A program made the position numbers and the translations under genes. The notes under the pieces were generated by a model. The model saw only the letters and a program-made list of their open reading frames with translations. It did no database searches and had not been told where the DNA came from. From Parapedobacter defluvii (lineage in GTDB: Bacteria; Bacteroidota; Bacteroidia; Sphingobacteriales; Sphingobacteriaceae), in contig NZ_BMIK01000012.1 of assembly GCF_014642075.1 (NCBI RefSeq), positions 62,001 to 126,000 on the forward strand: 64,000 nucleotides of DNA, given 5' to 3'. This document shows, in pieces, positions 7,878 to 50,884 of the stretch; within the stretch, counting starts at the first letter, position 1, and each line of letters starts with the position of its first letter.

Positions 7878-7936
7878 ATCCTATAATACCCAGCCAATTT
7901 GATACAGAAGCGGCAAGATTTAATGGGATACCTTTG
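7878..7936 (+). promoter_or_regulatory. Promoter with conserved upstream element, site B
   Basis: ATCCTATAAT starts at 7878, 2 nt after the preceding stop. The -7 box TACCTTTG is at 7929-7936, again 59 nt from element start to box end. The proximal copy (GATACAG, then GGCAA) is the clearest second repeat among the group. A TTG start at 7934 would lie inside the -7 box and is therefore excluded. Confidence 0.7.
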
Positions 7937-7996
7937 ACTGTATCAAGGATAAATTTCGGGGTTACCTTCGTAATCAAATGGACAAAAGATCGAAAA

Positions 7997-11374: not shown

Positions 11375-13114
11375 ATGGCATTTAATATAAATGGAAGTAA
11401 GGACAAATACGACGTCATTATTGTCGGGTCCGGTGCGGGCGGAGGTATGGCCGGTTACGTGCTGGCACATGCAGGCTTGAGGGTATTGATGCTGGAATCC
11501 GGTCCTTTTTTCGATCCAGCCAAAGATTCGTTACAGATGCGCTGGCCCTGGGAGTCACCGCGCAGAGGCGCATCTACAAACCGTGCCTTTGGAGATTTCG
11601 ATGGTGCTTTTGGGGGATGGGAAATCGACGGCGAGCCTTATACCAATAACGAAGGAAGCGAATTCCGGTGGTTCAGGTCGCGGATGCTGGGGGGCCGGAC
11701 AAACCATTGGGGCCGCATTTCCCTGCGTTTTGGTCCAAAGGATTTTAAAGGGGGAAGCTTTGACGGTGCCACCGACGACTGGCCGATCACGTATGAGGAA
11801 GTCAAGCCTTACTATGACAAAGTTGATGTGTTGATCGGTGTGTATGGCACCAATGAAGGACTGGAAGACGATCCCGACGGTATTTTTCTGAAACCACCCA
11901 AGCCGAGGCTCCACGAAATACTTATTATGGAAGAGGCAAAGAAAAAAGGGATTCCCGTAATTCCGGGCAGGGGCTCGGTACTTACCGAACCGTTGAAAAA
12001 CAACAGTCAACGGGGTGTGTGTTTCAACTGCGGTCAATGCGGCAGGTCCTGTAAGGTGTATGGAGATTTTTCGTCGTCGTCTGCGTTGGTGATCCCTGCC
12101 ATCCGGACCGGCAACCTGGAAGTGCTTCCAAATTCGTTGGTACGCGAAGTGCTGGTAGACGGGGATGGGCTGGCCAAAGGCGTTTCCTACGTAAGCAAAG
12201 AAGATATGCAGGAATATCAGGTTTACGGCGAGCAGGTGATATTGGCCGCCAGTGCCTGCGAATCGGCCCGTATCCTGCTGAATTCGAAATCCAGGCAACA
12301 TCCGCAGGGACTGGCCAACAGCAGTGGGGTGGTGGGCAGATACCTTCACGATTCCACGGGAGTAAGTGTAGCGGCATACCTTCCCCGGTTGAAAGACCGC
12401 AAGCGGTATAACGAAGATGGCGTCGGTAGTTTGCACGTCTATGCACCGTGGTGGCTGGATAATTCGAAGCTGGATTTTCCGAGGGGCTATCACATCGAAT
12501 TCGGCGGAGGGATGAACATGCCTTCTTATGGATACCTCAATGATTTGCCCCGGTTTAATGGGGCGTTGGCCCAGACCAATGGGGAGGTCAAGAAAAGCGG
12601 CGGATATGGTAGGTCCCTGAAAGAAGAATACCGCAGTTATTTCGGGACTAAGGTGGTGCTGGCCGGACGGGGTTTGGCAATTGCGCGAAAGGACAATTAC
12701 TGTGAAATAGATTCCAATACTGTCGATAAATATGGTATCCCGGTATTGAAATTTCACTACAAATGGCACGATGCGGAGATCAAACAGGGCAGGCACATGC
12801 AGGACACTTTCCATGATCTGTTCACCGGAATGGGTGCCGTCATCACCTCACAGTATGTAGGTGCGGACCGGAACTACGGCCTCAAAAAGCCCGGCGAGAT
12901 TATTCATGAGGTGGGTACCGTACGGATGGGAGACGATCCGAAAACATCGGCCCTGAATAAATGGTGCCAGGCCCATGACTGCAAGAACCTGTTTGTCGTA
13001 GACGGGGCTCCTTTTGTGCAGCAGGGCGACAAAAACCCTACGTGGACGATACTGGCGCTGTCCATGCGGACGTCGGAATATATTTTGGAACAACGGAAAA
13101 GACGTAATCTGTAA
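11375..13114 (+). CDS. GMC-family FAD oxidoreductase (gluconate dehydrogenase-like large subunit)
   Basis: A 579-residue GMC oxidoreductase. The FAD-binding motif DVIIVGSGAGGGMAGYVL is at the N-terminus, RMLGGRTNHWG is the second GMC signature, and the C-terminus has the catalytic His (HEVGTVRMG) and Asn (GDKNPTW). It would oxidise a sugar hydroxyl, possibly C3 of a glycoside, passing electrons to an outside acceptor. It has no export signal; the small subunit 5 nt downstream has a Tat signal and may carry it out as a folded complex, as in related gluconate or glucose dehydrogenases. Odd: C216-x2-C219-x2-C222-x3-C226 forms a ferredoxin-like iron-sulfur motif. It is the first gene of the 11375-19331 operon. 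Confidence 0.88.
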   Translation: MAFNINGSKDKYDVIIVGSGAGGGMAGYVLAHAGLRVLMLESGPFFDPAKDSLQMRWPWESPRRGASTNRAFGDFDGAFGGWEIDGEPYTNNEGSEFRWFRSRMLGGRTNHWGRISLRFGPKDFKGGSFDGATDDWPITYEEVKPYYDKVDVLIGVYGTNEGLEDDPDGIFLKPPKPRLHEILIMEEAKKKGIPVIPGRGSVLTEPLKNNSQRGVCFNCGQCGRSCKVYGDFSSSSALVIPAIRTGNLEVLPNSLVREVLVDGDGLAKGVSYVSKEDMQEYQVYGEQVILAASACESARILLNSKSRQHPQGLANSSGVVGRYLHDSTGVSVAAYLPRLKDRKRYNEDGVGSLHVYAPWWLDNSKLDFPRGYHIEFGGGMNMPSYGYLNDLPRFNGALAQTNGEVKKSGGYGRSLKEEYRSYFGTKVVLAGRGLAIARKDNYCEIDSNTVDKYGIPVLKFHYKWHDAEIKQGRHMQDTFHDLFTGMGAVITSQYVGADRNYGLKKPGEIIHEVGTVRMGDDPKTSALNKWCQAHDCKNLFVVDGAPFVQQGDKNPTWTILALSMRTSEYILEQRKRRNL

Positions 13115-13119
13115 TTACG

Positions 13120-13758
13120 ATGAATAAAATGAAGCGAAGAGATGCCCTGAAAGCCATTGGCGTGTCCATGGTGGCAAGCGGGTTTCTTTTTCACCGATGT
13201 GGTAACGAAAAAACAGATCGGGTAATCTCCCGGATCAATCTGGAACTGAAGGAAGGCAGGGAGCTTTGGGAACGGGAGCGGCTTGAAGAACTGAATTCGT
13301 TTACATTCTTTGATCAGCATGAAAAAGAAACGCTTACCGAACTGGTGGATCTGGTCATACCCGCGGATGAAGATTCCCCGGCTGCTTCCGGCGTGGGGGT
13401 GCCCGATTTCATCGAGTTTATCGTAAAAGACCAACCGGAATTGCAGCAGCCGATGCGGGATGGATTGAAGTGGATAGACGATTACTCCCAACAGCAATTC
13501 CGGGGTGCTTTCACGGGGATCACAGCTGATCAGCGGACGCAAGTGCTGGACCGCATTGCCTATCCGGAACCGGAAAGCAGCGAATTGCAATCGGGCATCG
13601 CATTTTTTGCGCTGTTGAGAGAGCTGACAGCTTCGGGATATTTTACGACAAAAGCGGGCATCGAATACCTGGGATACGTGGGTAACCGGCCGAATGTATG
13701 GGAAGGGGTGCCCACGGATGTCCTCCGGCAATATCACCTGACGCATTTAATTACGTAA
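13120..13758 (+). CDS. Gluconate 2-dehydrogenase subunit 3 family protein, Tat signal
   Basis: A 212-residue protein beginning with a twin-arginine motif (KRRDALKAIG) and a hydrophobic stretch, then the family core TLTELVDLVIPADEDSPAASGVGVPDFIE. This family is the small subunit of membrane-bound FAD sugar dehydrogenases and is needed for export and maturation of the large GMC subunit. The gene follows the GMC gene by 5 nt, so the two should form one periplasmic enzyme. No cytochrome subunit is encoded next to them; the nearest c-type cytochrome domains are at 48122 and 52395. Confidence 0.85.
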   Translation: MNKMKRRDALKAIGVSMVASGFLFHRCGNEKTDRVISRINLELKEGRELWERERLEELNSFTFFDQHEKETLTELVDLVIPADEDSPAASGVGVPDFIEFIVKDQPELQQPMRDGLKWIDDYSQQQFRGAFTGITADQRTQVLDRIAYPEPESSELQSGIAFFALLRELTASGYFTTKAGIEYLGYVGNRPNVWEGVPTDVLRQYHLTHLIT

Positions 13759-13776
13759 ACCAAAAAATCCAAAAAT

Positions 13777-15225
13777 ATGAAGCAAGACAGTAAGAAACAG
13801 TCCAGAAGGGATTTCATCAGCACGGCCAGCCTCGCGGTTGCGGGTGTAACCATCGTGCCCCGCCACGTATTGGGCGGCAAAGGATTTATCGCACCCAGCG
13901 ATAAACTGCTGATCGCCGGTGTCGGCGTAGGGGGCAAAGGAAGAAGTGACCTGAAAAACTTTTACGATAGCGGCAAAGCTGAAATTGCCTATTTATGTGA
14001 CGTGGACGACCGGATGGCGAAGGAATCCCGGGAACGGTTCCCCAAAGCGAAGTATTACCACGACTGGAGGGAACTGTTCGATAAGGAATCCAAACATTTC
14101 GATGCAGTGTCTGTGTCTACGCCCGACCATAATCACGCCATCATTGCCATGGGCGCCATGCAACTCGGGAAACACGTATATGTCCAAAAGCCATTGACCC
14201 ATGACATCTATGAGGCACGGAAACTGACCGAAGCGGCAAAAAAATACAAGGTAGTAACCCAGATGGGTAACCAGGGTGCTTCGGGAGACGGGGTCAGGCA
14301 GCTCCGGGAGTGGTTTGATGCGGGTATAATCGGCGATGTACATACGGTCTACACCTGGACAAACCGGCCCGTGTGGCCTCAGGGGATTCCATGGCCTGCC
14401 CAATCACCCACTGTTCCGAAAGAGCTGGACTGGGACCTCTGGCTCGGGACGGCTCCCTACAAAGAATATGTGGACGGGCTCATACCCGGAAGCTGGCGGG
14501 GATGGTGGGATTACGGTACCGGAGCGCTGGGTGATCTGGGCTGCCACCTGCTGGAAGCTCCCTTTTCCGTGCTGGATCTCAAATATCCGATTGACGTGCA
14601 GGCAACTGTTGGCAGCGTTTATACGGCCTTCGGAGAACGGGGTTACTTTAAGGACAGCTGCCCGCCGTCGGGCTACGCGATATTGACTTTTCCCAAAACC
14701 AGCAAAACGCAGGGGGAAATAAAGCTGCATTGGATGGATGGTGGAATCAAGCCGATGCGCCCCGATGAGCTCGAAGCCGAGGAAATCATGGGGGATGGCA
14801 ACAGCGGCATCCTGTTTATCGGTACGAAGGGAAAAATGATGGCCAGTGAATATGCTGCCAATCCGAGGCTGATCCCGGTTTCGAGAACCAAGGAAGTAAC
14901 GGTTCCGCAGCGGTATGAGCGTGTAAAAGACGGTGCGGATGGACACTATGCACAGTGGGTTGAAGGAGCAATCGCCGGCTATGGCAATGCCAAACTAAGT
15001 GCGCCCTTTGAACTATCGGGTCCGCTGACGGAAACGGTGTTGATGGCCAACCTGGCGATACGGGTGGCTGATATCCCCAAACCACGTCCCAGCGGTAAAG
15101 GGTTCATTTACCCGGGAAGCAACAAGCTGATGAAGTGGGACAGCCAGAACATGCGGATTACCAACTACGAGGAGGCCAATCAGTTTGTGAAGCGGGAATA
15201 CAGAAAAGGTTGGGGACAATTATAG
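13777..15225 (+). CDS. Tat-exported Gfo/Idh/MocA oxidoreductase
   Basis: A 482-residue Gfo/Idh/MocA protein with a twin-arginine signal (SRRDFISTASLAVAG). The nucleotide-binding strand is LLIAGVGVGGKGRSD and the usual EKP motif reads QKP (HVYVQKPLTHD), as is common in secreted members of the family. The C-terminal half has the sugar-binding sheet (GSWRGWWDYGTGALGDLGCH). Members of this type oxidise or reduce a sugar hydroxyl with tightly bound NAD(P) and act in the 3-keto-glycoside route in Bacteroides. The position between the GMC pair and the DUF1080 gene (18 nt and about 10 nt gaps) supports that role here. Confidence 0.85.
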   Translation: MKQDSKKQSRRDFISTASLAVAGVTIVPRHVLGGKGFIAPSDKLLIAGVGVGGKGRSDLKNFYDSGKAEIAYLCDVDDRMAKESRERFPKAKYYHDWRELFDKESKHFDAVSVSTPDHNHAIIAMGAMQLGKHVYVQKPLTHDIYEARKLTEAAKKYKVVTQMGNQGASGDGVRQLREWFDAGIIGDVHTVYTWTNRPVWPQGIPWPAQSPTVPKELDWDLWLGTAPYKEYVDGLIPGSWRGWWDYGTGALGDLGCHLLEAPFSVLDLKYPIDVQATVGSVYTAFGERGYFKDSCPPSGYAILTFPKTSKTQGEIKLHWMDGGIKPMRPDELEAEEIMGDGNSGILFIGTKGKMMASEYAANPRLIPVSRTKEVTVPQRYERVKDGADGHYAQWVEGAIAGYGNAKLSAPFELSGPLTETVLMANLAIRVADIPKPRPSGKGFIYPGSNKLMKWDSQNMRITNYEEANQFVKREYRKGWGQL

Positions 15226-15235
15226 CTATAACGTG

Positions 15236-15874
15236 ATGACGTTGAAAATATATTTAATCTGCGGCCTTGCCCTGTGGTTTTCCGGCGTGGCAGCACAAAC
15301 GGGTCGTTGGATGCCACTGTTTGACGGCAAGACATTAAACGGATGGAAAGCAAGCGAAAACGAATCATCCTTCCGTGTCGAAGACGGCTGCATCGTACAG
15401 GAAGGACCGCGGTCTCACCTGTATTATATGGGCGATGTGGGTAGCCATGTGTTCAAGAACTTTGAATTCAAGGCCCAGGTGTACACATTCGAAAATGCCA
15501 ATTCAGGCATTTACTTCCACACCCGTTTCCAGGAAAAAGGGTTTCCCAACTATGGTTACGAGGTACAGGTCAATAATTCGCATCGGGATCCCATCCGTAC
15601 GGGCAGCTTGTACAATGTGGTAGATATTGCGGATAAGTACGCGGTCGATGGGAAATGGTTCGAGCTGTATATCAAAGTGGTGGATAACCACGTTGTTATA
15701 AAAGTGGATGGCACCACCCTGGTGGATTATACCCAGATGGCCGACAAAAGCCGGTTGGTAAGGAAGGAAGATCATTTCGGGCGCTACTTGGATTCCGGAA
15801 CATTCGCCATCCAGGCGCACGATCCGGGTTCAAAAGTAAAGTATAAAGATATTCAGGTAAAAATTTTAGATTAG
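15236..15874 (+). CDS. PF06439 (DUF1080) 3-keto-disaccharide hydrolase-like protein
   Basis: A 212-residue secreted protein with a signal peptide ending near VAAQ and a single jelly-roll domain of the DUF1080 family. Hallmarks are LFDGKTLNGWK, NSGIYFHTRF, NYGYEVQVNN and GTFAIQAHDPGS. The family is now known to include enzymes that cleave 3-keto-glycosides, acting after a dehydrogenase has oxidised C3. A GTG lies 3 nt upstream, but the ATG at 15236 is a natural start. The neighbours, an exported Gfo/Idh enzyme upstream and sugar-processing enzymes downstream, support keto-sugar chemistry in the periplasm. Confidence 0.85.
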   Translation: MTLKIYLICGLALWFSGVAAQTGRWMPLFDGKTLNGWKASENESSFRVEDGCIVQEGPRSHLYYMGDVGSHVFKNFEFKAQVYTFENANSGIYFHTRFQEKGFPNYGYEVQVNNSHRDPIRTGSLYNVVDIADKYAVDGKWFELYIKVVDNHVVIKVDGTTLVDYTQMADKSRLVRKEDHFGRYLDSGTFAIQAHDPGSKVKYKDIQVKILD

Positions 15875-15879: not shown

Positions 15880-16614
15880 ATGATGAAACCGATTGTTCAG
15901 ATCTCGCTGGATCTTACGGATATTGAAGAAGCGGTGAATACCGCTCATATCGCCTTGCAGGCCGGGGTAGACTGGCTGGAAGTAGGCACCCCGCTCGTGT
16001 TGGCAGAGGGCCTGCACGGGGTGCGCCGGCTGAGAAGCGAATTTCCGGATACACCGTTGGTGGTCGACCTGAAAACCATGGATGGCGGTTACCTGGAAGC
16101 AGAGATGATGGCCAAAGCGGGCGCAACGCACGTTGTGGTCATGGGAAGGGCCCATGCGGAAACCATCAAATGCGTGGTACAGGCCGGGCGAGATTTCGGC
16201 GTGAAGGTGATGGGCGATAACCTCGCCTGCGACTCCATGGTAGACGGCGCCAGGTTTCTGGAAGATCTGGGATGCGATTACGTGATCCACCACATCGGTT
16301 ACGACGAACGGCGGGGACTGGTGGCGCAGGGTTTGGCCTGTCCCAGTCCGCTGGACCAACTTGCCGAAGTGGTGGAAGCGGTACATGTACCCGTTCAGGC
16401 CGTGGGAGGGTTGTCCATTGACCAGGCCATCTCATGCCCTTCTTACGGTGCGCCGTTGGTGGTGCTTGGAGCGCCCCTTACGATTGATGCCGACTCGTTC
16501 AAAACGTCGAGCAGCAACGATCTTCCCGGTGTATTGCGTACCATCTGCAAAAACATCCATTCGCAGTCAATCAACAAGAAATATAAACAACCATGGAGTT
16601 TTTATCAGTCGTAA
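15880..16614 (+). CDS. OMPDC/HUMPS-superfamily decarboxylase or aldolase (hexulose-phosphate-synthase-like)
   Basis: A 244-residue TIM-barrel protein of the orotidine-phosphate decarboxylase suprafamily. The signature D-x-K-x-x-D is present as DLKTMD (Asp63, Lys65, Asp68), with an early aspartate (Asp11) and Glu34 as in hexulose-6-phosphate synthase and 3-keto-L-gulonate-6-phosphate decarboxylase. Those enzymes handle 3-keto sugar phosphates, which fits an operon that makes 3-keto sugars. The C-terminal tail of about 30 residues is basic and looks added. The gene overlaps the next by 22 nt. The exact reaction is not predictable. Confidence 0.75.
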   Translation: MMKPIVQISLDLTDIEEAVNTAHIALQAGVDWLEVGTPLVLAEGLHGVRRLRSEFPDTPLVVDLKTMDGGYLEAEMMAKAGATHVVVMGRAHAETIKCVVQAGRDFGVKVMGDNLACDSMVDGARFLEDLGCDYVIHHIGYDERRGLVAQGLACPSPLDQLAEVVEAVHVPVQAVGGLSIDQAISCPSYGAPLVVLGAPLTIDADSFKTSSSNDLPGVLRTICKNIHSQSINKKYKQPWSFYQS

Positions 16615-17618
16615 ATTTCGATCGCCAAAAGGGTTCGGTGGAGCTCCGGAAGGTGCCCAAACCTTCGCCGAAAAGCGGTGAGGTGATTCTGGAAGTAAAG
16701 AGCGTGGGCGTATGTGGCAGTGATCTGCACCAATGGACGTCCAGTCACAGCTGGGAGGTCAATTACCCGGTTATATTGGGCCATGAATTTGCAGGGGTCA
16801 TCCGCGAAAGCGGCCCGGATGTAAAAAACTGGAAGATCGGCGACCGCGTAGTCAGTGAAACGGCGGCCATCATCAACCCGGATAACCCGTTATCAAAAGT
16901 GGGGCTGTATAACCTTGATCCGTCGCGCAAGGGATTCGGTTACGGCGTCAACGGTGCGATGACCAAATATGTGGCGGTGCCCGCCCGTTGCCTGCATCGC
17001 ATACCGGATACACTGGAGTTCGAGAAAGCTTGCCTGACCGAGCCGTGCAGCGTAGCTTACAATGCGGTGGTGAATAACGCAGATATCAAGCCAGGAGACC
17101 GCGTGCTGGTTATCGGCCCCGGTACCATCGGGATGTTATGCGCGCTGATGGCCCAGTTAAGGGGTGCCGAAGTGGGCATCGTGGGGTTGGAAAGTGACCG
17201 TGTGCGGCTGGACGTTGCAGCGGCCTATGGAATACAACCCCTCACCGGCGATGCAGGTGTCTGGGCAAGGGAGCTGGACGGAATGGGTGCCGATTGTGTG
17301 ATCGATTCCGCAGGAATCAGCCATACGCTCCAAAATGCCATCGACTGGGTTCGGCCCAACGGACAGGTGGTTAAAGTAGGCTGGGGCCCCCAGCCCATCG
17401 GGTTTTCACTGGATCCCATCGTGCAGAAAAACGTACGTATTCAGGGCAGTTTCAGCCACAACTGGCCCGTGTGGGAGAAGGTGATCCGGCTGTTGGCCAC
17501 GGGCCGCCTGGATATAAGCAAAATCGTCGGTGGGATGTGGCCGTTGGAGGAATGGGAAGTGGCGTTCCGCAAGATGAAGGACGGGGAAGTCATAAAAAGT
17601 GTATTGATACCGAAATAA
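16593..17618 (+). CDS. Medium-chain (zinc-type) sugar alcohol/threonine dehydrogenase-like
   Basis: A 341-residue MDR-family dehydrogenase. Catalytic zinc ligands are present (Cys41 in VGVCGSDLHQW, His64 and Glu65 in GHEF, Glu150 in LTEP) and the Rossmann motif is VIGPGTIG. Unusually, the structural-zinc lobe keeps its normal length but all four cysteines are replaced: Asn95, Asn98, Ser101 and Asp109. The enzyme should oxidise a polyol or keto-sugar intermediate with NAD(P) in the cytosol. It overlaps the decarboxylase-like gene by 22 nt, and a short-chain dehydrogenase follows 20 nt later. Confidence 0.85.
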   Translation: MEFLSVVNFDRQKGSVELRKVPKPSPKSGEVILEVKSVGVCGSDLHQWTSSHSWEVNYPVILGHEFAGVIRESGPDVKNWKIGDRVVSETAAIINPDNPLSKVGLYNLDPSRKGFGYGVNGAMTKYVAVPARCLHRIPDTLEFEKACLTEPCSVAYNAVVNNADIKPGDRVLVIGPGTIGMLCALMAQLRGAEVGIVGLESDRVRLDVAAAYGIQPLTGDAGVWARELDGMGADCVIDSAGISHTLQNAIDWVRPNGQVVKVGWGPQPIGFSLDPIVQKNVRIQGSFSHNWPVWEKVIRLLATGRLDISKIVGGMWPLEEWEVAFRKMKDGEVIKSVLIPK

Positions 17619-17638
17619 ACCAATCGGGAGGAACAACC

Positions 17639-18448
17639 ATGCAAAACGATCTATTAAAAGACAAGGTGATCATCGTCACCGGCGCATTTGGAGGAATCGG
17701 ACTCGCAATTGCGAAGGCTTGCCTGAATGCCGGGGCATGGGTGCTGCTGCACGGGCGGAGTGAGCGGAACCGGACCGATGCGCTGGCCTACCTGGACGGC
17801 GGGGAACGGGTTGAACCATTTGTCGGCGACGTAACGCGCGACAACTTTGCACCGGAGCTGGTGGAGGCCACGATACGCCGTTTCGGCAAGATCAATGGCA
17901 TCGTCAACAATGCGGCCTACGTGGTCTCGTCAAATGTGCACGATACGACACTTGCGTTGTTCCGGGAGGTGCTAGAGGTGAATTCGTTGGCACCGTTTTC
18001 CATCATCCAGGCGGCCCTGCCGCATCTGGCGGAAACCAAGGGGGCGGTGGTGAATATCGGCTCGGTCAATGCCTATGCCGGAGAACCGAATTTATTGGCG
18101 TACAGTGTGTCAAAAGGGGCCTTGATGACCCTTACCAGAAACCTGGGAGATACGTTGCACCGGGATTTGGGGATACGGGTAAACCAACTGAATGTGGGAT
18201 GGGTGCTGACCGAAAAAGAACAGGAACGGAAGGTAGGTCACGGATTGCCTCCGGATTGGTATACCCTTATTTCTCCGATGTATGCGCCCGCCCGGAGGTT
18301 ACTGGATCCGATGGAAGTTGCAAACTCCGCGGTATTCTGGCTTTCTGATCTGCTGGGGCCTGTAAGCGGACACGCGATTGAACTTGAACAGCATCCCATC
18401 ATCGGAAGAAATCCCGAAAAAAACGTAGACGCGTTAGACATCGATTGA
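17639..18448 (+). CDS. Short-chain dehydrogenase/reductase
   Basis: A 269-residue classical SDR. The cofactor motif TGAFGGIG is at residues 14-21, NNAA near 90, Ser142 in NIGSVNAY, and the catalytic YxxxK is Tyr155/Lys159. It would interconvert a hydroxyl and a keto group on a sugar or sugar acid. The open frame extends back to 17471 inside the preceding gene, but the ATG at 17639 has a good Shine-Dalgarno-like GGGAGGA a few bases upstream and the SDR fold starts right after it. The downstream isomerase gene begins 1 nt after its stop. The GLPPDWYTLISPMYAPARRL segment is the substrate-loop region. Confidence 0.85.
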   Translation: MQNDLLKDKVIIVTGAFGGIGLAIAKACLNAGAWVLLHGRSERNRTDALAYLDGGERVEPFVGDVTRDNFAPELVEATIRRFGKINGIVNNAAYVVSSNVHDTTLALFREVLEVNSLAPFSIIQAALPHLAETKGAVVNIGSVNAYAGEPNLLAYSVSKGALMTLTRNLGDTLHRDLGIRVNQLNVGWVLTEKEQERKVGHGLPPDWYTLISPMYAPARRLLDPMEVANSAVFWLSDLLGPVSGHAIELEQHPIIGRNPEKNVDALDID

Positions 18449-18449
18449 T

Positions 18450-19331
18450 ATGCCCAAATTAGCTGTATTTCCGAAAGCCTTTATGAAAGCGCTTTGTGTA
18501 ACGGGAGAAATGACGCTTGACGAATGGATTGATCTGGCATCGGCGCTGGAAATTGACGGACTGGAATGGTACGCCGGGTTTCTGGGAATGGAAGACTCCC
18601 GCAACTGGACCCGTTACCGCAGCCGCGTAAGCGACGCCGGACTGGAGATACCGATGATGTGCTGCTCGCCGGATTTTACCCATCCCGATGCTGCATTCAG
18701 GAAGGAACAGATCCGGAAGCAGAAGCAATGGATCGATATGACGCATGCGCTGGGAGGCCGTTATTGCCGTGTGCTGTCCGGCCAGCGGCGGCCCGAGCTT
18801 TCGCTGGACGAAGGCGTAAAACTGGCGGCGGATTCGATCCGGGAGTGCCTTGAATACGCCAAAACACTTGGCATTACCTTAATTCTGGAAAATCATTACA
18901 AAGACGACTTCTGGAAATTCCCGGAGTTCGCGCAGAAAGCGGCCGTATTCTGTCAGCTCGTCGAGGCGATCGATGATCCCTATTTTGGAGTAAACTACGA
19001 TCCCAGTAATAACTTCCTTGCGGGTGAAGACCCGTTGGCACTGCTGGAAAAGGTGAAATACCGAGTCAAGACGATGCATGCCAGCGACCGGTATCTCGTG
19101 GGCGGAACCATTGATGACCTACGGAAGATGGAAGATAACAGCGAGGGGTATGCGTCTGTGCTGAGGCATGGCGAAATCGGCAAAGGACTCAACGATTATG
19201 ATGCTATTTTCACGACGTTGAGGTCCGTTGGTTTCGACAGCTGGATCAGCATCGAAGACGGCGTGGACGGTATGGATCAATTGAAAAGGAGCGTAGATTT
19301 CGTAAACCGGAAAATCGGGCAATACTGGTAA
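18450..19331 (+). CDS. Sugar phosphate isomerase/epimerase-family TIM barrel
   Basis: A 293-residue protein of the xylose-isomerase-like TIM-barrel family (AP-endonuclease 2 fold). Metal-site segments include LILENHYKDD, FGVNYDPSN, TMHASDRYL and WISIEDGVDG. There is no signal peptide, so it acts in the cytosol. Related proteins isomerise or epimerise sugars, dehydrate inosose, or hydrate keto sugars in the 3-keto-glycoside pathway. It is the last gene of the 11375-19331 operon, with 1 nt to the upstream SDR gene, and is followed by a new promoter. Confidence 0.8.
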   Translation: MPKLAVFPKAFMKALCVTGEMTLDEWIDLASALEIDGLEWYAGFLGMEDSRNWTRYRSRVSDAGLEIPMMCCSPDFTHPDAAFRKEQIRKQKQWIDMTHALGGRYCRVLSGQRRPELSLDEGVKLAADSIRECLEYAKTLGITLILENHYKDDFWKFPEFAQKAAVFCQLVEAIDDPYFGVNYDPSNNFLAGEDPLALLEKVKYRVKTMHASDRYLVGGTIDDLRKMEDNSEGYASVLRHGEIGKGLNDYDAIFTTLRSVGFDSWISIEDGVDGMDQLKRSVDFVNRKIGQYW

Positions 19332-19423: not shown

Positions 19424-20362
19424 ATGAGCAAAAAAGATAAGGGATACATTCCCGTTATGTTAACCCCCTTTACGGAAAGTGGTGCGGTCGATTTTAGTGG
19501 ATTGACGAAACTTACGGAGCTTTACCTCGGGGCGGGCGCAGCAGGCTTATTTGCCAACTGCCAATCGAGCGAAATGTTTAATTTATCGGAAGAGGAGCAA
19601 TTAGCTGTCACCAAGCAGGTGTTGCAGGTGGCAGACGGCGCAGTGCCGGTAGTTGCTACCGGTACCTTTGGCGGTCCGGTGGAAAAGCAGGCGGATTTCG
19701 TAAAACGGATGTATGAGACAGGAGTGGATGCCGTCATCGTAATTACAAACATGCTGGCAGGGGAATCGGAAAGCGCAGACGTATTTGATGAACGTTTCGG
19801 ACAATTGCTTGACGCCACGCCGGGTATTCCACTGGGATTCTACGAGTGTCCGGAACCCTTTAAACGGGTGCTGACTGCGGAGCAACTGAAGCGCTTTGTC
19901 AGTACAGGACGTGTCATTTATCACAAAGATACCTGTTTGGATATTGAACAAATCAGGGCAAAGCTGGATGCAACAAAGGCCGTATCCAAGTTCGGTTTGT
20001 ATGATGCGTATATGGTTCATGCCGTAGAGTCGTTAAAAGCAGGTTCCGCGGGTCTATCGTGTATCCAGGGCAATTATTATCCGGAATTGGTTGTCTGGCT
20101 GTGTAACCACTTCGATGACGATGAACTGGCAGATCAGGTTGAGCGGGTACGGCAATTTTTTGTCGAACGCATGGATGTGATGCATGCGGTGTACCCGATC
20201 GTAGCCAAATATTTCCTGCAAAAAAGAGGACTGCCCATCTCAACCTTTACACGGAAAAATGCCGGTGTATTTGATGCGTCAGTCAGGGGGCAGATAGACT
20301 CGCTTTATGTGCAATTTCAGCAATTGATGGAGCAGATTGAGCTAAAGCCCTTATTGGCATAA
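19424..20362 (+). CDS. Dihydrodipicolinate synthase/N-acetylneuraminate lyase family aldolase
   Basis: A 312-residue class I aldolase of the DapA/NanA family. The Schiff-base lysine is Lys168 (VIYHKDTC), the proton-relay tyrosine is Tyr140 (LGFYECP), and the substrate carboxylate loop usually written GGTGE is FANCQSSE here, which points away from lysine biosynthesis and towards a sugar-acid-type substrate. The enzyme should cleave or form a 2-keto acid, releasing pyruvate. It opens a second operon with the glycosidase-like and HpcH/HpaI aldolase genes and is preceded by the shared regulatory element. Confidence 0.82.
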   Translation: MSKKDKGYIPVMLTPFTESGAVDFSGLTKLTELYLGAGAAGLFANCQSSEMFNLSEEEQLAVTKQVLQVADGAVPVVATGTFGGPVEKQADFVKRMYETGVDAVIVITNMLAGESESADVFDERFGQLLDATPGIPLGFYECPEPFKRVLTAEQLKRFVSTGRVIYHKDTCLDIEQIRAKLDATKAVSKFGLYDAYMVHAVESLKAGSAGLSCIQGNYYPELVVWLCNHFDDDELADQVERVRQFFVERMDVMHAVYPIVAKYFLQKRGLPISTFTRKNAGVFDASVRGQIDSLYVQFQQLMEQIELKPLLA

Positions 20363-20383: not shown

Positions 20384-22798
20384 ATGAAGTTGGGAAATGC
20401 CATATTTTTCGTCGGACTGTGGATTGCAGTAACCCCTATCGGTTATGCCCAGGGGCGTGGACTTTCGTATATCGACTTGTCAGCGGGCGGTATCTGCAAT
20501 TTCGTTACCGATAAGCAGCAGCTCTTGCGGACGCAATCGGTCTTGCTTGAGGAGATTGCCAAACGGAGCGGCATTGACCTTCCGATGATGTCTTCCGGGG
20601 AACTTGGAAAAAAACCCGGCATTATCTTAACCCTCGAATCGGATACCAAACGCCTACCTCAGGTGGTGCAGGAAGCCGTGGGGGAGATGGAACACATCGG
20701 CGCTGAAGGATACCGGCTGATTGCCCTAAAAAAATACCAGATTGTTGTTGTGATGGGAAAAGATGCAAGGGGCTTGTTATTTGGCGTCGGCAAGTTACTC
20801 AGAAAAGCAACAATAACGCCCGATTCCATGTTGTTTCCGGACCATTTTTCGTTAGCTACGACACCCAAAAATCCCATCCGTGGCCATCAATTGGGTTACC
20901 GCCCCAAAAATAACGCATACGATGCTTTTTCTGTTGCGCAGTTTGACCAGTATATCCGGGAGTTGGCGCTCTTTGGCGTGAATTGTATTGAGCTAGTACC
21001 TCCCCGAACGGACGACGATCCGACGCATCCGATCATGAAGCTGCCACCGGCACAGATGATGGTTGAATTATCAAGGATCTGTGATAGCTATGGGCTGGAT
21101 GTCAGCATGTGGTACCCAAATGTGGGGAAAGATTACGACAGTCCCGCAGGCATCCAGTCGGAGCTGGCCGAGCGGGAAGAAGTATTTGCGGCGTTACCCC
21201 GGCTGGACGCGTTATTTATACCCGGCGGAGATCCGGGCGATCTGGAAGTGGACACGCTTTTCCGATGGGTCGGACAGGTAGCCGAGGTGCTTCGCAACTA
21301 TCATCCGGATAGCAAAATATGGATTTCCCCGCAGGCGTTCAAACAGACCGACCACTGGTTCGACGTATTTTTCGAACAGGCAAACCGCCGCCATGAATGG
21401 TTCGGTGGCGTGGTATTCGGGCCGTGGGTCAGCATGCCGATTGCCGAAATCAGAAACCGTCTTTCCCCGGAAATACCGATCCGGCGGTATCCAGATATCA
21501 CCCACAACATCAGCTGCCAGTATCCGGTTCCGGATTTCGATTTAACATGGGCACTGACACTGGGGCGCGAGAGCATCAACCCCCGCCCGCGGGAATTTAA
21601 ACACATCCATAACTTATTTGAATCATACGCTATTGGGGGCATCACCTATTCCGAAGGAACAAACGATGATGTGAATAAATTCGTTTGGTCCGACCAGGAC
21701 TGGGATTCGTCAACACCGGTGGTAGAGACCCTGCGCGATTACGCCCGGCTGTTTTTAGACCCGCTGCTTGTCGAACCCTTTGTGCTCGCCATCTTCGCAT
21801 TGGAGGATAACCTCCGGGGTTCCCCTTTGACCAACGGCGGCATGATCCGTACACTGGACAAGTGGCGCTACCTGGAACAGCATTCTCCGGCAGGAAAGGC
21901 ATCGAATCCCCGCTTTCAGATGGGGTTGATACGGGCATATTTCGATGCATATACCTACCGGCGGTTGACCTGGGAAACCTACCTGGAACAGCAAGCGTGG
22001 GACGTCTTAAGAGGTGCAGCACCTGAAACGGTGGACAACGCCCTTACGGAAGCCATCGCCTTGCTGAAAAAGGGAGCCTCGCAACCGGTTTGCGCGGATT
22101 GGCGGCAACGGTGCCTGGAGCTGGCGGACTCGCTTTACGAAAGTATCGGTACACAGTTGACGGTGGAACGCCACCACGGCTATGAAGAACGGGGTAACTT
22201 CATCGATCACATTGATATGCCACTGAACGATGCGCCCTGGCTGTTGCCACAGCTGGAAGCGTTGCTGTCCACTCCTTCCGTTGCAGAAAAAGTAAAACAA
22301 TTAGCCGGTATTTTACAGCGGACAGATCCGGGGCCGGGGGGGATATACGACAATTTTTCGGAAGCCGGATCGTGGCAGCGGGTTGAGAAGGGGAAGGGAT
22401 GGTTCGCCGACCCCGGAAATTTACAGTCGGCCAGCCACGGCTTCAACATCAAGGTAAAAGGACCCTCGGAAAGAGCGGCTGAACCCAAAGCATGGATGAA
22501 GCAGGCCACGGTCCTGTACGATCATCCGTTGGTAATCCATTACGGCGAGCTGGATACCCATGCTAATTATTCCGTAAAAATAGCGTATACAGGGCGGTTT
22601 AAATCGAATATATCGCTGCATGCAGACGGACTGCCGGTACACGGATACCAGCCGGTCTCGGGAAGTGAAGTATATGAATTTGACGTGCCGAAGGCCGCAA
22701 CATCGGATGGAAAGGTGACCTTTCAATGGCGGTGCAAACCCGGTGAGCGTGGATTGCAGGTAGCTGAACTATGGTTGACAAGGAAAGAACGTAACTAG
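20384..22798 (+). CDS. Exported glycoside-hydrolase-like protein, family unassigned
   Basis: An 804-residue exported protein. After the signal peptide (to about AQG) comes an alpha/beta domain like the N-terminal domain of alpha-glucuronidases and hexosaminidases (IVVVMGKDARGLLFGVGKLL, about residues 30-155). A TIM-barrel-like region follows (YIRELALFGVNCIELVPPRTDD; LDVSMWYPN; LFIPGGDPGD; GGVVFGPW), then helical and beta-rich C-terminal domains. I cannot place it in a named GH family. Candidate acidic residues are in PPRTDDDP and PGGDPGDLE. An in-frame TTG lies 9 nt upstream, but ATG 20384 starts a better signal peptide. It sits between two aldolase genes. Confidence 0.65.
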   Translation: MKLGNAIFFVGLWIAVTPIGYAQGRGLSYIDLSAGGICNFVTDKQQLLRTQSVLLEEIAKRSGIDLPMMSSGELGKKPGIILTLESDTKRLPQVVQEAVGEMEHIGAEGYRLIALKKYQIVVVMGKDARGLLFGVGKLLRKATITPDSMLFPDHFSLATTPKNPIRGHQLGYRPKNNAYDAFSVAQFDQYIRELALFGVNCIELVPPRTDDDPTHPIMKLPPAQMMVELSRICDSYGLDVSMWYPNVGKDYDSPAGIQSELAEREEVFAALPRLDALFIPGGDPGDLEVDTLFRWVGQVAEVLRNYHPDSKIWISPQAFKQTDHWFDVFFEQANRRHEWFGGVVFGPWVSMPIAEIRNRLSPEIPIRRYPDITHNISCQYPVPDFDLTWALTLGRESINPRPREFKHIHNLFESYAIGGITYSEGTNDDVNKFVWSDQDWDSSTPVVETLRDYARLFLDPLLVEPFVLAIFALEDNLRGSPLTNGGMIRTLDKWRYLEQHSPAGKASNPRFQMGLIRAYFDAYTYRRLTWETYLEQQAWDVLRGAAPETVDNALTEAIALLKKGASQPVCADWRQRCLELADSLYESIGTQLTVERHHGYEERGNFIDHIDMPLNDAPWLLPQLEALLSTPSVAEKVKQLAGILQRTDPGPGGIYDNFSEAGSWQRVEKGKGWFADPGNLQSASHGFNIKVKGPSERAAEPKAWMKQATVLYDHPLVIHYGELDTHANYSVKIAYTGRFKSNISLHADGLPVHGYQPVSGSEVYEFDVPKAATSDGKVTFQWRCKPGERGLQVAELWLTRKERN

Positions 22799-22804: not shown

Positions 22805-23626
22805 ATGGATACAAATGGATTTTATCAAAAAATCAAGAACGGAACTCCGGTATACGGAACCTGTGTAACGGTAAATAGCCCCCAATGGCCGGCCCTGGTG
22901 AATAAGGCGGGGCTTGATTTTGTGTTTCTGGATACGGAACATGTCCCCTTAGACCGGTCTCAATTGGCGTATTTATGCCACGGTTACCGGGCGCAGGGTA
23001 TTGCACCGATTGTGAGGGTTGGCACTGCTGACGACACGCTGGTCTGTCAGGCCGTGGATGCGGGTGCACAGGGAGTTGTTGCCCCGTATCTGGAAACCGA
23101 ACAACAAATTGAATCGTTGGTTTATGCATTAAAATACCGACCATTGAAGGGTGCCCTGATGGAACAATATAGGGCGAAGCCAGAAACCGTGCCCGATACG
23201 CTTCAAACGTATCTGGCAGGGTATAACAGCGGCAACATAGCGATCGCCAATATAGAGAGTGTGCCTGCCTTGAGCAACCTGGATAGCCTGCTGGCTGTCA
23301 GGGGATTGGATGCGGTATTCATTGGCCCGCATGACCTTTCGATCAGCATGGGATTACCGGAGGAATACGACCATCCCGAGTTTGAGAAGGCTGTTTCCCA
23401 TATTATCAAGTCGTGCAGGTCCACCGGTATAGCGGTAGGTATCCATTTTTCGATGGAACCGGACAGGCAGGTGAAATGGGCACAGCACGGTGCAAATATC
23501 ATTGTGCACAGTTCTGACATAGCGCTGTTCGGTCAGCGGTTGGCATCCGATATGAAATACATCAAAAATCTATTGGGTCATACGCATCATTCCGGTGAAC
23601 CGGATACGATGGCAACAGTTATCTGA
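22805..23626 (+). CDS. HpcH/HpaI-family class II aldolase
   Basis: A 273-residue TIM-barrel aldolase of the HpcH/HpaI (2-keto-3-deoxy-sugar acid) family. Landmarks are DFVFLDTEHVPLD, VRVGTADD, the metal-binding DAGAQGVVAPYLET, IANIES, and GPHDLSISMG. It would split a 2-keto-3-deoxy acid to pyruvate and an aldehyde with a divalent metal in the cytosol. The spacing of 6 nt from the glycosidase-like gene makes it part of the 19424 operon. Two different pyruvate aldolases in one operon suggest that a sugar acid is an end-stage intermediate. Confidence 0.82.
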   Translation: MDTNGFYQKIKNGTPVYGTCVTVNSPQWPALVNKAGLDFVFLDTEHVPLDRSQLAYLCHGYRAQGIAPIVRVGTADDTLVCQAVDAGAQGVVAPYLETEQQIESLVYALKYRPLKGALMEQYRAKPETVPDTLQTYLAGYNSGNIAIANIESVPALSNLDSLLAVRGLDAVFIGPHDLSISMGLPEEYDHPEFEKAVSHIIKSCRSTGIAVGIHFSMEPDRQVKWAQHGANIIVHSSDIALFGQRLASDMKYIKNLLGHTHHSGEPDTMATVI

Positions 23627-26118: not shown

Positions 26119-27540
26119 ATGCAGTGTATCCATATGACACTTCTCCGAAACAAGACGTTAACACGTACGATCGGAAAAATTTTTTTGGCATTTTTCCTGA
26201 TCTGCACTGTTGCGGGAGAAGGTTTTTGCCAGCAAGGCGCAATCACACCCCGGACGGCCCTCCGCAGTTACCTGAACAACGGCGATCAGGCGTACGCATG
26301 GGAGATCCGGGATAGCCTGGTATACGATAAAGGGACCATTTTCCAGGTGCTGCTTACCTCGCAGCGCTGGCGGGAGCATACCTGGCGGCATCAACTGAAT
26401 GTCATCGTTCCCAACGAAATTGCATACGACGGTGGTTTGCTTTTCGTCAGCAGTGGCCGTATGCAGAAAGAAGATCCAACGATGCCCCAATGGAACGACT
26501 TAGCGAAGGATGGATTGATACAGGACGTTGCGCGGATTGCCGAGGAAAATAAAGCCGTGGCGGCGGTCCTCCGGCAGGTGCCCAATCAGCCGCTGTATGG
26601 GGGCCTGGTAGAAGACGAGTTGATTTCGTATACGCTCCATCAGTTTCAAAAAGATGGAGACTTTTCCTGGCCATTGTTGTTTCCGATGGTTAAAAGCGCG
26701 ATCCGGGGCATGGACGCGGTGCAGGAAATTGCCGCAAGCCGTTCCGCAAAACCGGTGGAGCGGTTTGTGGTTTCCGGCCTGTCCAAACGAGGCTGGACAA
26801 CCTGGCTGACCGCCTCGCAAGACAACCGGGTGGAAGCGTTGGCCCCGATGGTGATCGATATCCTCAATATGCCGGTTAACCTCAATTACCAGGTTGAGGT
26901 ATGGCACGAATACAGTCCGCAGATACAGGACTATGTGGCGCTTGGCCTGGTGCAGGACATCGGGAGCGACCGTGGCCGCACATTGGCACAGATGATCGAT
27001 CCGTATTCCTACAAGGAACAGCTTAACAAACCCAAGATGTTATTTATGGGTACCAATGATCAGTATTGGGTCATTGATGCGGTGAAGCACTACATCGACA
27101 GCGTGCCCGGCCCTTACTACATTCACTATGTGCCTAACGAAGGGCATGACCTGGGGGATAAACAGCAGGCGTTTCAGGCGCTGTCATCCTTCTGGGGATT
27201 TACCCTGCAGCATAAGCCTTACCCGGTTACCGATTACAAAACATCGGTGGGAAAGGATGCGCTGGAATTGAAAATACGGGCAACGAAACCGAAATTGGAG
27301 GGAGCGGTTATCTGGAGTGCGGTGTCGGACGATCAGGACTTCCGGGATGAGACCTGGGTGAGTCGTGAACTGCCCGTGGTACACAAGCGGAAATTCAAGG
27401 TGAAGGAAACGTTGCCCACTTCGGGTTACAAAGCCTTCTACGTAGACCTGAAATACCGCAACACAAATGGAGAGCTATATACCCAGAGTACGCGGGTCTT
27501 TGTGTCAGACAGTCATTCGTTTTTGATCGGTGGTCGGTGA
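26119..27540 (+). CDS. PqaA-family exported alpha/beta hydrolase (PhoPQ-activated type), copy 1
   Basis: A 473-residue exported protein of the PhoPQ-activated pathogenicity-related (PqaA) family. It contains an alpha/beta-hydrolase core with the nucleophile-like turn GLSKRGWTTWLTAS, an aspartate in MGTNDQYWV and a histidine in PNEGHDLG. Its biochemical role is not established. The fifteen residues after the first ATG are unusual for a signal peptide; the ATG at 26134 is an alternative start. The stop codon lies inside a 7-bp repeat array that encodes the last residues. A paralogue at 41226 is clearly similar throughout. A metallophosphatase lipoprotein follows. Confidence 0.8.
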   Translation: MQCIHMTLLRNKTLTRTIGKIFLAFFLICTVAGEGFCQQGAITPRTALRSYLNNGDQAYAWEIRDSLVYDKGTIFQVLLTSQRWREHTWRHQLNVIVPNEIAYDGGLLFVSSGRMQKEDPTMPQWNDLAKDGLIQDVARIAEENKAVAAVLRQVPNQPLYGGLVEDELISYTLHQFQKDGDFSWPLLFPMVKSAIRGMDAVQEIAASRSAKPVERFVVSGLSKRGWTTWLTASQDNRVEALAPMVIDILNMPVNLNYQVEVWHEYSPQIQDYVALGLVQDIGSDRGRTLAQMIDPYSYKEQLNKPKMLFMGTNDQYWVIDAVKHYIDSVPGPYYIHYVPNEGHDLGDKQQAFQALSSFWGFTLQHKPYPVTDYKTSVGKDALELKIRATKPKLEGAVIWSAVSDDQDFRDETWVSRELPVVHKRKFKVKETLPTSGYKAFYVDLKYRNTNGELYTQSTRVFVSDSHSFLIGGR

Positions 27541-27598
27541 TGGGTGATCGGTGATGGGGGGTCTGTGGTCCGTGGTCGGCAGTGAGTGATCGGTGTTC
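27529..27598. repeat. Array of ten degenerate 7-bp repeats, unit GGTGATC
   Basis: From 27529 the sequence parses into ten 7-base units close to GGTGATC (for example GGTGGTC, GGTGATG, GGTGATC, AGTGATC, GGTGTTC). The array covers the end and stop codon of the PqaA-like gene and reaches the start of the next gene. The same unit appears at 60725-60766. Confidence 0.8.
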
Positions 27599-27601
27599 AG
27601 T

Positions 27602-29401
27602 ATGATGAATTTGGACAGTATAAAACGGAAAGCGGAACAAGTAGTTGGATGCTTCGTATGGGGCATCCTCCTTGTGGCTGGCTGTGCGCCGGAGCAACGA
27701 CTGGAAGAACTCACCGTGAAACGTGTGATGGATAGCTTGGTGACGCGTATTTATGCGCAATGGGATACCCGGCTGATCAATGGCTTGGATGAAAATCTGG
27801 TGTTGAAATTCGTGAGTCCCGAAGAACAGACCGCGCTTGCTGAAAACTACTGGCGGTTCGGGGTAGACGTTCCGGTGGTTGTATCCCTCATGCGCGACAG
27901 TGCACAGGCTTCGGTGCCTTTCTGGCTGGTGGCGTCTGGTTTCGAAAAGACGGCCTACACCGTCCGGAATGAATTGTACACCTATGAGGTATGGCAGAAA
28001 AGTTTTCCGGCGGGTGAGGTAGGGCTTGGAATCAACGGATTCGACAAGCACCGCCCGGTTTATTTTGTTTCGGTAGCTCCGCAGCATCCGGGAGAAAAAG
28101 TCAACATTACCCCAATCCTGCCTGAAAAACAGGCCATCACCGTGCTGGACACGGGTGCGTTTGTCTATCACGATTGGGATGAACTGATGCTTACTGACGT
28201 GCCCCGGCCGCTGAGAGGGCAGCAACTGTTGCCCACCATACGGGGGCGTGCCCGTGAAGCGCATGTCATCGGTGCGTTCCGGAGGACGGCGTTTCCATCC
28301 GCGGGAATACCCGATCAAGTGGTGCTCACCCTGCCCGAAAATACAGCGCGCGGCATGGTGGTCCAATGGCGGTGCGCACCGGATGTAAAGCGGGGATGGA
28401 TTAAGTACTGGAAATCTGGAACGGACGATACCATGCGGGTTGATGTAGCTGGCACGTTGCTGGAGGACCGGTTGTTACGCAATGACCGGTATATAAGCCG
28501 GTTCCGCGTACAACTTGATTCCCTGCAGCCCGGTGCGGCTTATGAATATCGGATCGGACAGGGTGATATCGCCGGGGAGACTGGGGTGTTTGCTATGCCG
28601 GATGCCACCGATACATTTGCCTTCACATGGTTTGGCGACATCCATAATGACCCCGCATGGGGGAAACTTGCGCAACGTGCTGCCGCCGACCATCCCCAAA
28701 CGAACTTTTACCTCGCTGTGGGCGACCTTGTCAACACCGGTTTACACCGCGATGATTGGGATGCGCTGTTTGCCTATTCGGGGGGGATTTTCCGAGAGAA
28801 GCCACTGATGGCAGTACCCGGCAATCACGACAGCCAGGATGGACTGGGCGCAGGAATGTTCCGCGACCTGCTGTCCTACCCGGCAAACGGACCCGATGGA
28901 CAACCGCCGGGTTTCACGTATGCATTCCGGTATAAGCATGCACTGTTTTTGATGTTAGACGTCGTCAGCTTTTCCGCGCAGCAGCAGGCCGCTTGGATTG
29001 AATCCCAGTTATCGGACACGGACGCGGTTTGGAAATTTGTCGTTTTTCATTTCCCGCCTTACACCCTGGAAGAACCGTATCCAGATATTGTAAAAAACTG
29101 GGTGCCTTTGTTTGATAAGTATGGGGTGGATCTGGTAATGAACGGGCATTTCCATTATTACCTGCGTACCCAGCCGATGAAGGATAGTCAGCCTGTAAAA
29201 GCGGAAGAAGGCGGCACAAGGTACGTGATGTCCGTCAGCACACGGGGTAAAAATGCTGATTCGGTGTCAGAGCCCTATGCAGCTAACGTATTGAAAGAAG
29301 GATATCTTTATCAGTATGTCCAGCTGGACGGCAGACGGTTGACATTTACCTGCGTTGATGCCGAAGGAAAGATCCGAGATCGTTTTGAACTCGCTAAATA
29401 A
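27602..29401 (+). CDS. Metallophosphoesterase lipoprotein with long N-terminal domain
   Basis: A 599-residue lipoprotein; the lipobox LLVAGC is textbook. Residues up to about 230 form a domain I do not recognise. A purple-acid-phosphatase-type fibronectin domain follows (ENTARGMVVQWRCAPD), then a calcineurin-type phosphatase domain with FGDIHND, VGDLVN, GNHDSQD, FHFPPYT and NGHFHYY. It is likely to be on the cell surface or in the periplasm. An upstream GTG lies within the 7-bp repeats; ATG at 27602 (or 27605) is preferred. It is the larger relative of the enzyme at 7997 and belongs to the run of exported genes 26119-32868. Confidence 0.8.
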   Translation: MMNLDSIKRKAEQVVGCFVWGILLVAGCAPEQRLEELTVKRVMDSLVTRIYAQWDTRLINGLDENLVLKFVSPEEQTALAENYWRFGVDVPVVVSLMRDSAQASVPFWLVASGFEKTAYTVRNELYTYEVWQKSFPAGEVGLGINGFDKHRPVYFVSVAPQHPGEKVNITPILPEKQAITVLDTGAFVYHDWDELMLTDVPRPLRGQQLLPTIRGRAREAHVIGAFRRTAFPSAGIPDQVVLTLPENTARGMVVQWRCAPDVKRGWIKYWKSGTDDTMRVDVAGTLLEDRLLRNDRYISRFRVQLDSLQPGAAYEYRIGQGDIAGETGVFAMPDATDTFAFTWFGDIHNDPAWGKLAQRAAADHPQTNFYLAVGDLVNTGLHRDDWDALFAYSGGIFREKPLMAVPGNHDSQDGLGAGMFRDLLSYPANGPDGQPPGFTYAFRYKHALFLMLDVVSFSAQQQAAWIESQLSDTDAVWKFVVFHFPPYTLEEPYPDIVKNWVPLFDKYGVDLVMNGHFHYYLRTQPMKDSQPVKAEEGGTRYVMSVSTRGKNADSVSEPYAANVLKEGYLYQYVQLDGRRLTFTCVDAEGKIRDRFELAK

Positions 29402-38253: not shown

Positions 38254-38263
38254 ATAGTAAACT

Positions 38264-50881: not shown

Positions 50882-50884
50882 CCC

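Follow-up and report, generated by a model that had tools for sequence, protein, structure and literature searches.

What does the 804-residue protein do that is encoded at 20384–22798 on the forward strand of a 64,000-nucleotide stretch of Parapedobacter defluvii DNA (contig NZ_BMIK01000012.1, positions 62,001–126,000; the whole stretch is referred to as the window), and on which no Pfam or NCBIfam model reaches its cut-off? The evidence points, with a probability of roughly 0.35, to an exported glycosidase of a new family that frees an acidic, possibly 3-deoxy-2-keto, sugar for the aldolase encoded next to it. Judged from sequences and predicted structures, this is a sound lead: a candidate new glycoside hydrolase (GH) family whose fold superfamily is known and whose pathway partner lends itself to testing.

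Family and fold of the focal protein

The focal coding sequence of a secreted glycosidase-like protein (P0001; 20384–22798, +), recognised from its frame, relatives and operon-like gaps, runs from an ATG at 20384 to a TAG stop at 22796–22798; a TTG at 20375 is an alternative in-frame start in the list of open reading frames (ORFs). A scan of genome contigs gave 89 pattern matches, of which 84 encode a relative and the best 80 of the 84 were kept as loci. Because a near-full-length frame is kept in most of these 80 loci, the ORF is real and not a chance one. In L018, L080 and L003/L005 the frame is in pieces, suggesting decay or sequencing error. The gene is single copy in its own genome. Judged by eye, the N-terminus resembles a Sec signal peptide, probably covering about residues 1–22 (20384–20449, +), and residues 1–25 have a predicted local distance difference test (pLDDT) score below 50. 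This agrees with the initial annotation, which had described an exported protein.

Family loci were found in Spirosoma, Dyadobacter, Larkinella, Runella, Chitinophagaceae, Prolixibacteraceae, Flavobacteriaceae, Paenibacillus and others, and the nearest named relative is that of Parapedobacter indicus (84% identity). Occurrence was patchy, with the family present in 3 of the 100 genomes of the relatives search, its own genome counted. Of 395 genomes of the phylum, 56 had matches; three were of the full-length type (>800 bits), and the other 53 were weak (≤48 bits) and nearly all limited to the N-domain, so that a sharp gap lies there between the family and anything else. Relatives with 32–34% identity are carried on plasmids of Granulicella, Asticcacaulis and Sphingomonas (Acidobacteriota and Alphaproteobacteria), and all of them are annotated as 'hypothetical protein'. 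No paper was recognised as describing the family among the listed results of searches of open-licence PubMed Central (PMC) text. These sequence comparisons indicate that the focal protein belongs to a discrete, uncharacterised family. In Paenibacillus cremeus (L068:9794–17326), three diverged focal-family copies stand in tandem behind an HpcH gene.

An AlphaFold2 model was built on an alignment of 47 rows, chosen from the 97 rows of family ORFs (a list that includes fragments), and reached a pLDDT of 91.7 and a predicted template modelling score of 0.91. The modelled order is an N-terminal GH67N/GH20b-like domain (about residues 28–160; 20465–20863, +), also indicated by sub-threshold Pfam matches and profile–profile comparison, a (beta/alpha)8 barrel (residues 160–462; 20861–21769, +), a helical bundle (about residues 463–645; 21770–22318, +) and a C-terminal beta domain (about residues 650–804; 22331–22795, +). 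The TIM-barrel-like core noticed earlier thus appears in a confident model as an eight-stranded barrel, with its strands between residues 165 and 422, and the barrel modelled alone (residues 160–462) retained a pLDDT of 85.2. Fold searches with Foldseek against the PDB and with VIA-align, in which ranks are those among the matches listed (up to 50 per search), returned a glycosidase-type fold with GH115 and GH84 at the top, which is the outcome of the structure prediction and structural database search suggested for this gene. In detail, the best Foldseek match of the whole chain was the GH115 alpha-glucuronidase BtGH115A (5by3; E 9.3e-18), with GH84, GH138, GH67 and GH20 in the rows below. 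In VIA-align, GH115 (Z 21.0, 617 residues aligned, root-mean-square deviation (rmsd) 16.2) was tied with GH84 (Z 20.9, 485 aligned, rmsd 5.7). The barrel alone matched GH84 CpOGA with Z 19.8 (rmsd 3.4 over 262 of 303 residues), tied with GH67 AguA (Z 19.3, rmsd 3.9, 272 residues) and GH20 beta-N-acetylhexosaminidase (Z 18.9, rmsd 3.5, 263 residues). By its model, the focal architecture is of the GH84/GH67/GH115/GH20 type.

At the sequence level, the N-domain was the part with recognisable relatives. The focal protein gave sub-threshold Pfam matches to GH67N (PF03648; 19.4 bits against a cut-off of 24.3) and GH20b (15.5 against 26.1), and at E≤1 these two models matched 46 and 35 of the 47 members, respectively. 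Profile–profile probabilities for the N-domain were 96.9% with GH67, 96.5% with GH115, 95.8% with GH20 and 89.8% with DUF4838, the DUF4838 match not extending beyond the N-domain; the hexosaminidase/glucuronidase-type N-domain of the initial annotation is borne out by these sub-threshold matches and by the 96–97% probabilities. Barrel-only profiles gave probabilities below 1% against GH84 (one sequence, which was aligned out of register) and against GH67, GH115 and GH20 (15 sequences each), the values being 0.6% for GH115 and 0.5% for GH67. Because only the N-domain profile is clearly related and the barrel stays below 1%, the family shares a fold superfamily with GH84, GH67, GH115 and GH20 but not a recognisable barrel sequence.

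Comparison with each of these families gave the same picture. The GH84 O-GlcNAcases (CpOGA/NagJ, BtGH84) resemble the focal protein in the arrangement of N-domain, barrel and helical bundle, but the latter has about 10% identity to them, an Asp-Pro in place of the acid pair, an extra C-terminal beta domain and no match to PF07555, either in the focal hmmscan (E≤10) or among the 47 members (E≤1), although that model finds the GH84 gene of locus L162. A PF07555 scan of 60 relatives was empty as well, but its controls were also empty, so it shows no absence. Structural matches to GH115 (BtGH115A, BoAgu115A) extend into the focal C-terminal domain, but whole-chain rmsd values are 7–18 and PF15979 had no match in the focal hmmscan (E≤10) or among the 47 members (E≤1). 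In spite of the GH67-like N-domain, the GH67 model PF07488 was absent from the focal hmmscan (E≤10). The focal PGGD resembles the GGDE motif of GH20, but continues as GGDP, with Asp and Pro fixed in 47 of 47 members, and the GH20 model PF00728 was absent from the focal hmmscan (E≤10) and is not among the 25 families listed at E≤1 across the 47 members. GH138, which acts on rhamnogalacturonan II (RG-II), ranked fourth in Foldseek (6hzf, E 8.5e-16), but a search of all PDB chains with the family profile (E≤10) did not list BP0997, the enzyme of that structure. DUF4838 (PF16126), whose proteins we take to be GH163, had weak matches in 3 of the 47 members (best E 0.023, below the cut-off), and in nine loci the focal gene is followed downstream by DUF4838 genes. 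A PDB sequence search found no characterised GH match for the focal protein, and the family profile gave weak N-domain matches only. Membership in GH20, GH67, GH84, GH115, GH138 or DUF4838 therefore fails in the tests run, and the earlier statement that the protein has no clear GH family holds for Pfam, NCBIfam and PDB sequence comparison.

Candidate active site

Close to where the barrel strands end on their C-terminal side, a number of residues are the same in 47 of 47 members. They include Asp283 on strand 4, Ser315 on strand 5, Arg367, Asp371, Thr373 and His374 at strand 7, and Tyr422, Ser423, Asp428, Asp429, Asn431 and Lys432 at strand 8. Three stretches stand out. Asp283 (codon 21230–21232, +), in the PGGDPG motif at the tip of strand 4 and followed by an invariant Pro284, is the candidate catalytic acid. 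Asp371 and His374 (codons 371–374 at 21494–21505, +), in YPDITH after strand 7, are candidates for base or acid. The third stretch, Glu424–Asp429 (21653–21670, +), belongs to the YSEGxxDDxNK motif after strand 8, where 44 of the 47 members have Glu at position 424 and the other three have Asp. The three plasmid relatives keep Asp283, Pro284, Asp371, His374, Glu424, Asp428, Asp429, Asn431 and Arg395; in them Arg367 is replaced by Glu, Leu or Ile, Thr373 by Ala and, in one, Lys432 by Gln.

In GH20 and GH84 the tip of strand 4 carries an acid pair, Asp-Glu and Asp-Asp, respectively; the GH84 gene of locus L162, for example, has a VALDDI stretch. The position of this pair reads Asp-Pro in 47 of 47 focal members and in 3 of 3 plasmid relatives. 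With Pro invariably in place of the second acid, a mechanism of the GH20/GH84 kind that uses the customary acid is excluded as far as the modelled strand assignment holds, and the earlier remark that the known catalytic signatures of these families are missing is supported by the absence of the pair from every aligned member. Separate acids on strands 4, 7 and 8 would fit an inverting enzyme better. Equivalences with the GH67 catalytic carboxylates, which we take to be E285, D364 and E392, were also drawn from a whole-chain alignment that places a Pro opposite the first carboxylate; they were not used as evidence, because the barrel-only probabilities were below 1%.

A conceptual parallel is offered by GH156. 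PMC6811678 describes EnvSia156 as a (beta/alpha)8-barrel hydrolase of a 2-keto-3-deoxy acid that uses His and Asp, an inverting sialidase whose Arg/Arg/Asn clamp holds the carboxylate. The focal family likewise has fixed Arg, His, Asp and Asn, but the likeness is conceptual only: GH156 was unmatched when the family profile was run against PDB chains (E≤10) and is not among the fold matches listed.

Aldolase partner, proposed reaction and rival readings

The focal gene begins 21 bp after a gene of the DHDPS family (19424–20362, +), an aldolase or dehydratase by annotation and structure–sequence search with YagE as nearest solved structure, and ends 6 bp before an HpcH/HpaI pyruvate-type aldolase gene (22805–23626, +). 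It thus lies between two aldolase-type genes, as first described, and these short gaps make cotranscription with both neighbours very probable. Linkage to the second gene was followed across loci, after L001, L002, L003 and L005 (own genome or duplicates) and ORFs shorter than 420 bases or mostly overlapped by longer ones had been dropped. In 49 of the 81 loci, from two phyla, the fetched flanks contained an HpcH/HpaI gene of one blast cluster; these loci cover Bacillota, Flavobacteriaceae, Chitinophagaceae, Sphingobacteriaceae and Spirosomataceae. Of 48 with a measured distance, 30 were on the same strand within 250 bp (24 downstream, 6 upstream). The HpcH gene is upstream of the focal gene in three Paenibacillus (L068, L070, L074) and two Flavobacteriaceae loci (L044, L065), downstream in most other Bacteroidota, and on the opposite strand 1–6 kb away in most Larkinella. 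That the linkage is kept despite rearranged order argues for a shared pathway, with the reservation that related genomes are not independent.

This linkage exceeds what is expected by chance. In 31 genomes there were 12 strong HpcH matches (E<1e-20), two of which are the focal-linked genes themselves, and at this density (12 per 31 genomes, about 20 kb of flank) proximity by chance would be well under 1%. On the tree, the HpcH label required 16 changes, at least 14 of them forced by the starred branches; 500 shuffles all needed more than 16, a result to which near-copies contribute. His48, Arg73, Glu153 and Asp179 of the aldolase, which we take to be the catalytic positions, line up with residues conserved in YfaU and related enzymes and are kept in at least 95% of the 49 proteins, and relatives of the HpcH protein include 2-keto-3-deoxyglucarate aldolases. 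The 49 proteins (for example L006:12416–13240) also have a His in the GP-H-D motif and an Asn just before an Ile-Glu pair; the solved relatives shown carry Ala or Ser at the first of these positions and Gln at the second. Judging from these residues, the subfamily possibly acts on a distinct substrate.

A second partner was found in part of the family. A GH143-like gene occurs in 13 of the 81 loci, 12 times on the same strand within 250 bp (8 upstream, 4 downstream); the three members that were scanned all score above 340 bits with PF24067, and the protein of L017 matches residues 20–600 of BT_1020 (E 9e-139). PMC6811678 describes the GH143 founder from Bacteroides thetaiotaomicron as an enzyme with two centres, which frees arabinofuranose and 3-deoxy-D-lyxo-heptulosaric acid (Dha) from RG-II. 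Its arabinofuranosidase glutamate is at 694 (PMC7263609), so the L017 match would cover the other half. Dha and 3-deoxy-D-manno-octulosonic acid (Kdo) are acidic sugars of RG-II disaccharide side chains (PMC12282258). An RG-II reading, prompted by these GH143-like genes, is possible but not claimed: no further RG-II-specific enzyme was seen among the Pfam-annotated neighbours, which were part of the total, and Pfam may have no model for several RG-II families.

Under the preferred reading, an exo-linked acidic sugar would be released by inverting (single-displacement) hydrolysis, in which Asp283 would act as general acid, Asp371 or a strand-8 acid would activate water, and the sugar carboxylate would be held by conserved arginines, Arg367 and Arg395 among them. 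The released sugar, or an oxidised and dehydrated form of it, would be a 2-keto-3-deoxy acid, which the neighbouring aldolase would cleave to pyruvate and an aldehyde, giving a short pathway. Glycosides of 3-deoxy-2-ulosonic acids (Dha or Kdo type) would be the leading substrate class, as they fit the aldolase and the GH143-like partners best when compared with uronic acids and amino sugars. The proposal of a candidate new GH family stands on the missing characterised match, the glycosidase fold and the missing acid pair. The role of key depolymerising enzyme, also proposed earlier, finds no support, because the partners (aldolase, GH143-like, GH20) suggest processing of side chains or terminal sugars, and nothing indicates endo action or a polymer substrate.

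Several observations weigh against this reading. The aldolase is absent from 32 of the 81 loci, some of which are on short contigs, and the three plasmid relatives, which have also lost Arg367, have no aldolase annotated nearby. Only 7 of the 13 GH143-like loci, these 7 all from Larkinella, have the aldolase gene as well; L041, L058, L062, L063, L064 and L069 have the GH143-like gene with no HpcH within reach, and no GH143-like gene was recognised among the Pfam-scanned genes of the window. The putative catalytic roles are assigned from conservation and modelled strand position only. Of the 35 GH20 genes whose position was measured, one adjoins the focal gene in the same orientation and the other 34 are upstream of it in the opposite one, and the Asticcacaulis relative is placed in an N-glycan-type cluster.

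These last points belong to the least doubtful of the rivals, still an unlikely one, namely an N-acetylhexosaminidase-like glycosidase for amino sugars of N-glycan or chitobiose-type glycans, in which Asp283 would orient the 2-acetamido group as in GH20 and GH84 and another residue would give the proton. Of the 85 loci, 37 have a GH20 homologue. In Cytophagales, genes for GH20, a ROK kinase, a major facilitator superfamily transporter and a LacI/AraC-type regulator form a divergent set that faces an HGSNAT-like gene preceding the focal gene; in the Prolixibacteraceae locus L078 a GH20 gene is directly upstream; the Granulicella relative has a fucosidase on one side and a GH20-domain protein on the other; and the barrel fold is nearest to GH84, GH67 and GH20. 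The Asticcacaulis cluster holds GH2, GH3, beta-galactosidase, GH125, GH92, fucosidase and GH84 (PF07555, 341 bits) genes and resembles plant N-glycan loci as presented in a review (PMC10154615). Against this, its proteins are almost without homologues in the 85 loci (phmmer, E≤1e-15), with none for GH2, GH35, GH125, GH29 and GH84 and one locus each for GH3 and GH92. An N-glycan reading of the whole family was for this reason kept only as a rival, and the substrate may differ between subfamilies, which matches the Arg367 loss in the plasmid relatives. Moreover, the invariant Pro after Asp283 removes the paired acid, and the aldolase linkage would be left unexplained.

An alpha-uronidase (glucuronidase or galacturonidase) like GH67, GH115 or GH138 with shifted catalytic carboxylates, which we rank just behind and likewise hold to be unlikely, would account for GH115 as best whole-chain fold with GH138 and GH67 close behind and for the N-domain match to GH67 and GH115, and the 2-keto-3-deoxyglucarate aldolases among the HpcH relatives would fit hexuronate oxidation. 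It is opposed by the barrel-only probabilities against GH67 and GH115, and no dedicated hexuronate pathway was recognised among the annotated window neighbours. That the protein is no hydrolase but a lyase, a transglycosidase or a non-catalytic binding protein on the same barrel appears improbable. No family member found here has a known activity, and genes for a 3-keto-type hydrolase (DUF1080) and a Gfo/Idh protein lie upstream in the window, but invariant acids, Arg and His are dense near the catalytic face, export is probable and the top fold matches are hydrolases.

The glycosidase–aldolase reading can be extended to a new GH family of barrel-type 3-deoxy-2-ulosonic acid glycosidases that is operon-coupled to a dedicated pyruvate aldolase, a complete and undescribed pathway by which Bacteroidota and Paenibacillus would turn a plant or bacterial glycan into pyruvate; this extension is speculative, and more doubtful than either glycosidase rival. 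No function assigned to this family of Bacteroidota and Paenibacillus was found here, but its fold, its probable export and the operons in which it lies all suggest a part in carbohydrate degradation. The conserved acids of the family, unlike the GH20/GH84 pattern, suggest that the fold may hydrolyse glycosides in another way, and the aldolase partner would give a direct handle on the product via pyruvate. If the product is Dha or Kdo, the family would help to explain the use of these sugars by environmental bacteria.

Other genes in the window

Upstream of the DHDPS-family gene lies a set of sugar-acid type catabolic genes (15880–19331, +), with HUMPS at 15880, a zinc-dependent alcohol dehydrogenase at 16593, a short-chain dehydrogenase/reductase at about 17633 and AP_endonuc_2, of the epimerase/isomerase type, at 18450; in L026 and L057 this set is found downstream of the focal and HpcH genes. 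It is preceded by a row at 11375–15874 of GMC oxidoreductase, gluconate-2-dehydrogenase subunit 3, Gfo/Idh and DUF1080 3-keto-disaccharide hydrolase genes, which is probably, by these annotations, a module for 3-keto glycoside cleavage; the best NCBIfam model of the Gfo/Idh protein is the BT_2158 glycoside 3-dehydrogenase (481.7 bits against a cut-off of 750).

Many phosphoesterase-like genes (purple acid phosphatase, type I phosphodiesterase) and PhoPQ-related genes occur in one cluster (7934–9286, 9396–11030, 26119–27540, 27593–29401 and 41208–42590), and the PhoPQ-related gene has relatives in ten focal loci. Neutral-ceramidase-like proteins are encoded at 39934–41184 (26.7 bits, below the cut-off) and at L050:20011–21435 (64.4 bits, above it). 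A lipid or inositol-glycan reading, drawn from the phosphodiesterases, acid phosphatases, the sub-threshold ceramidase match at 39934–41184 and inositol-type dehydrogenase resemblances, was set aside as too diffuse.

Because two SusC/SusD-type pairs stand downstream (34843–39895 and 42900–47928), the region is probably, as far as gene content tells, a polysaccharide utilisation locus. The 747-residue protein at 30625–32868 had no Pfam or PDB match, and its relatives stand upstream of the focal gene in L013, L058, L062, L063, L064 and L069, with DUF3748 between the two in five of them. At 48122–53831, planctomycete-type PSCyt1/PSCyt2/PSD1 and DUF1501 genes are present in this Bacteroidota cluster.

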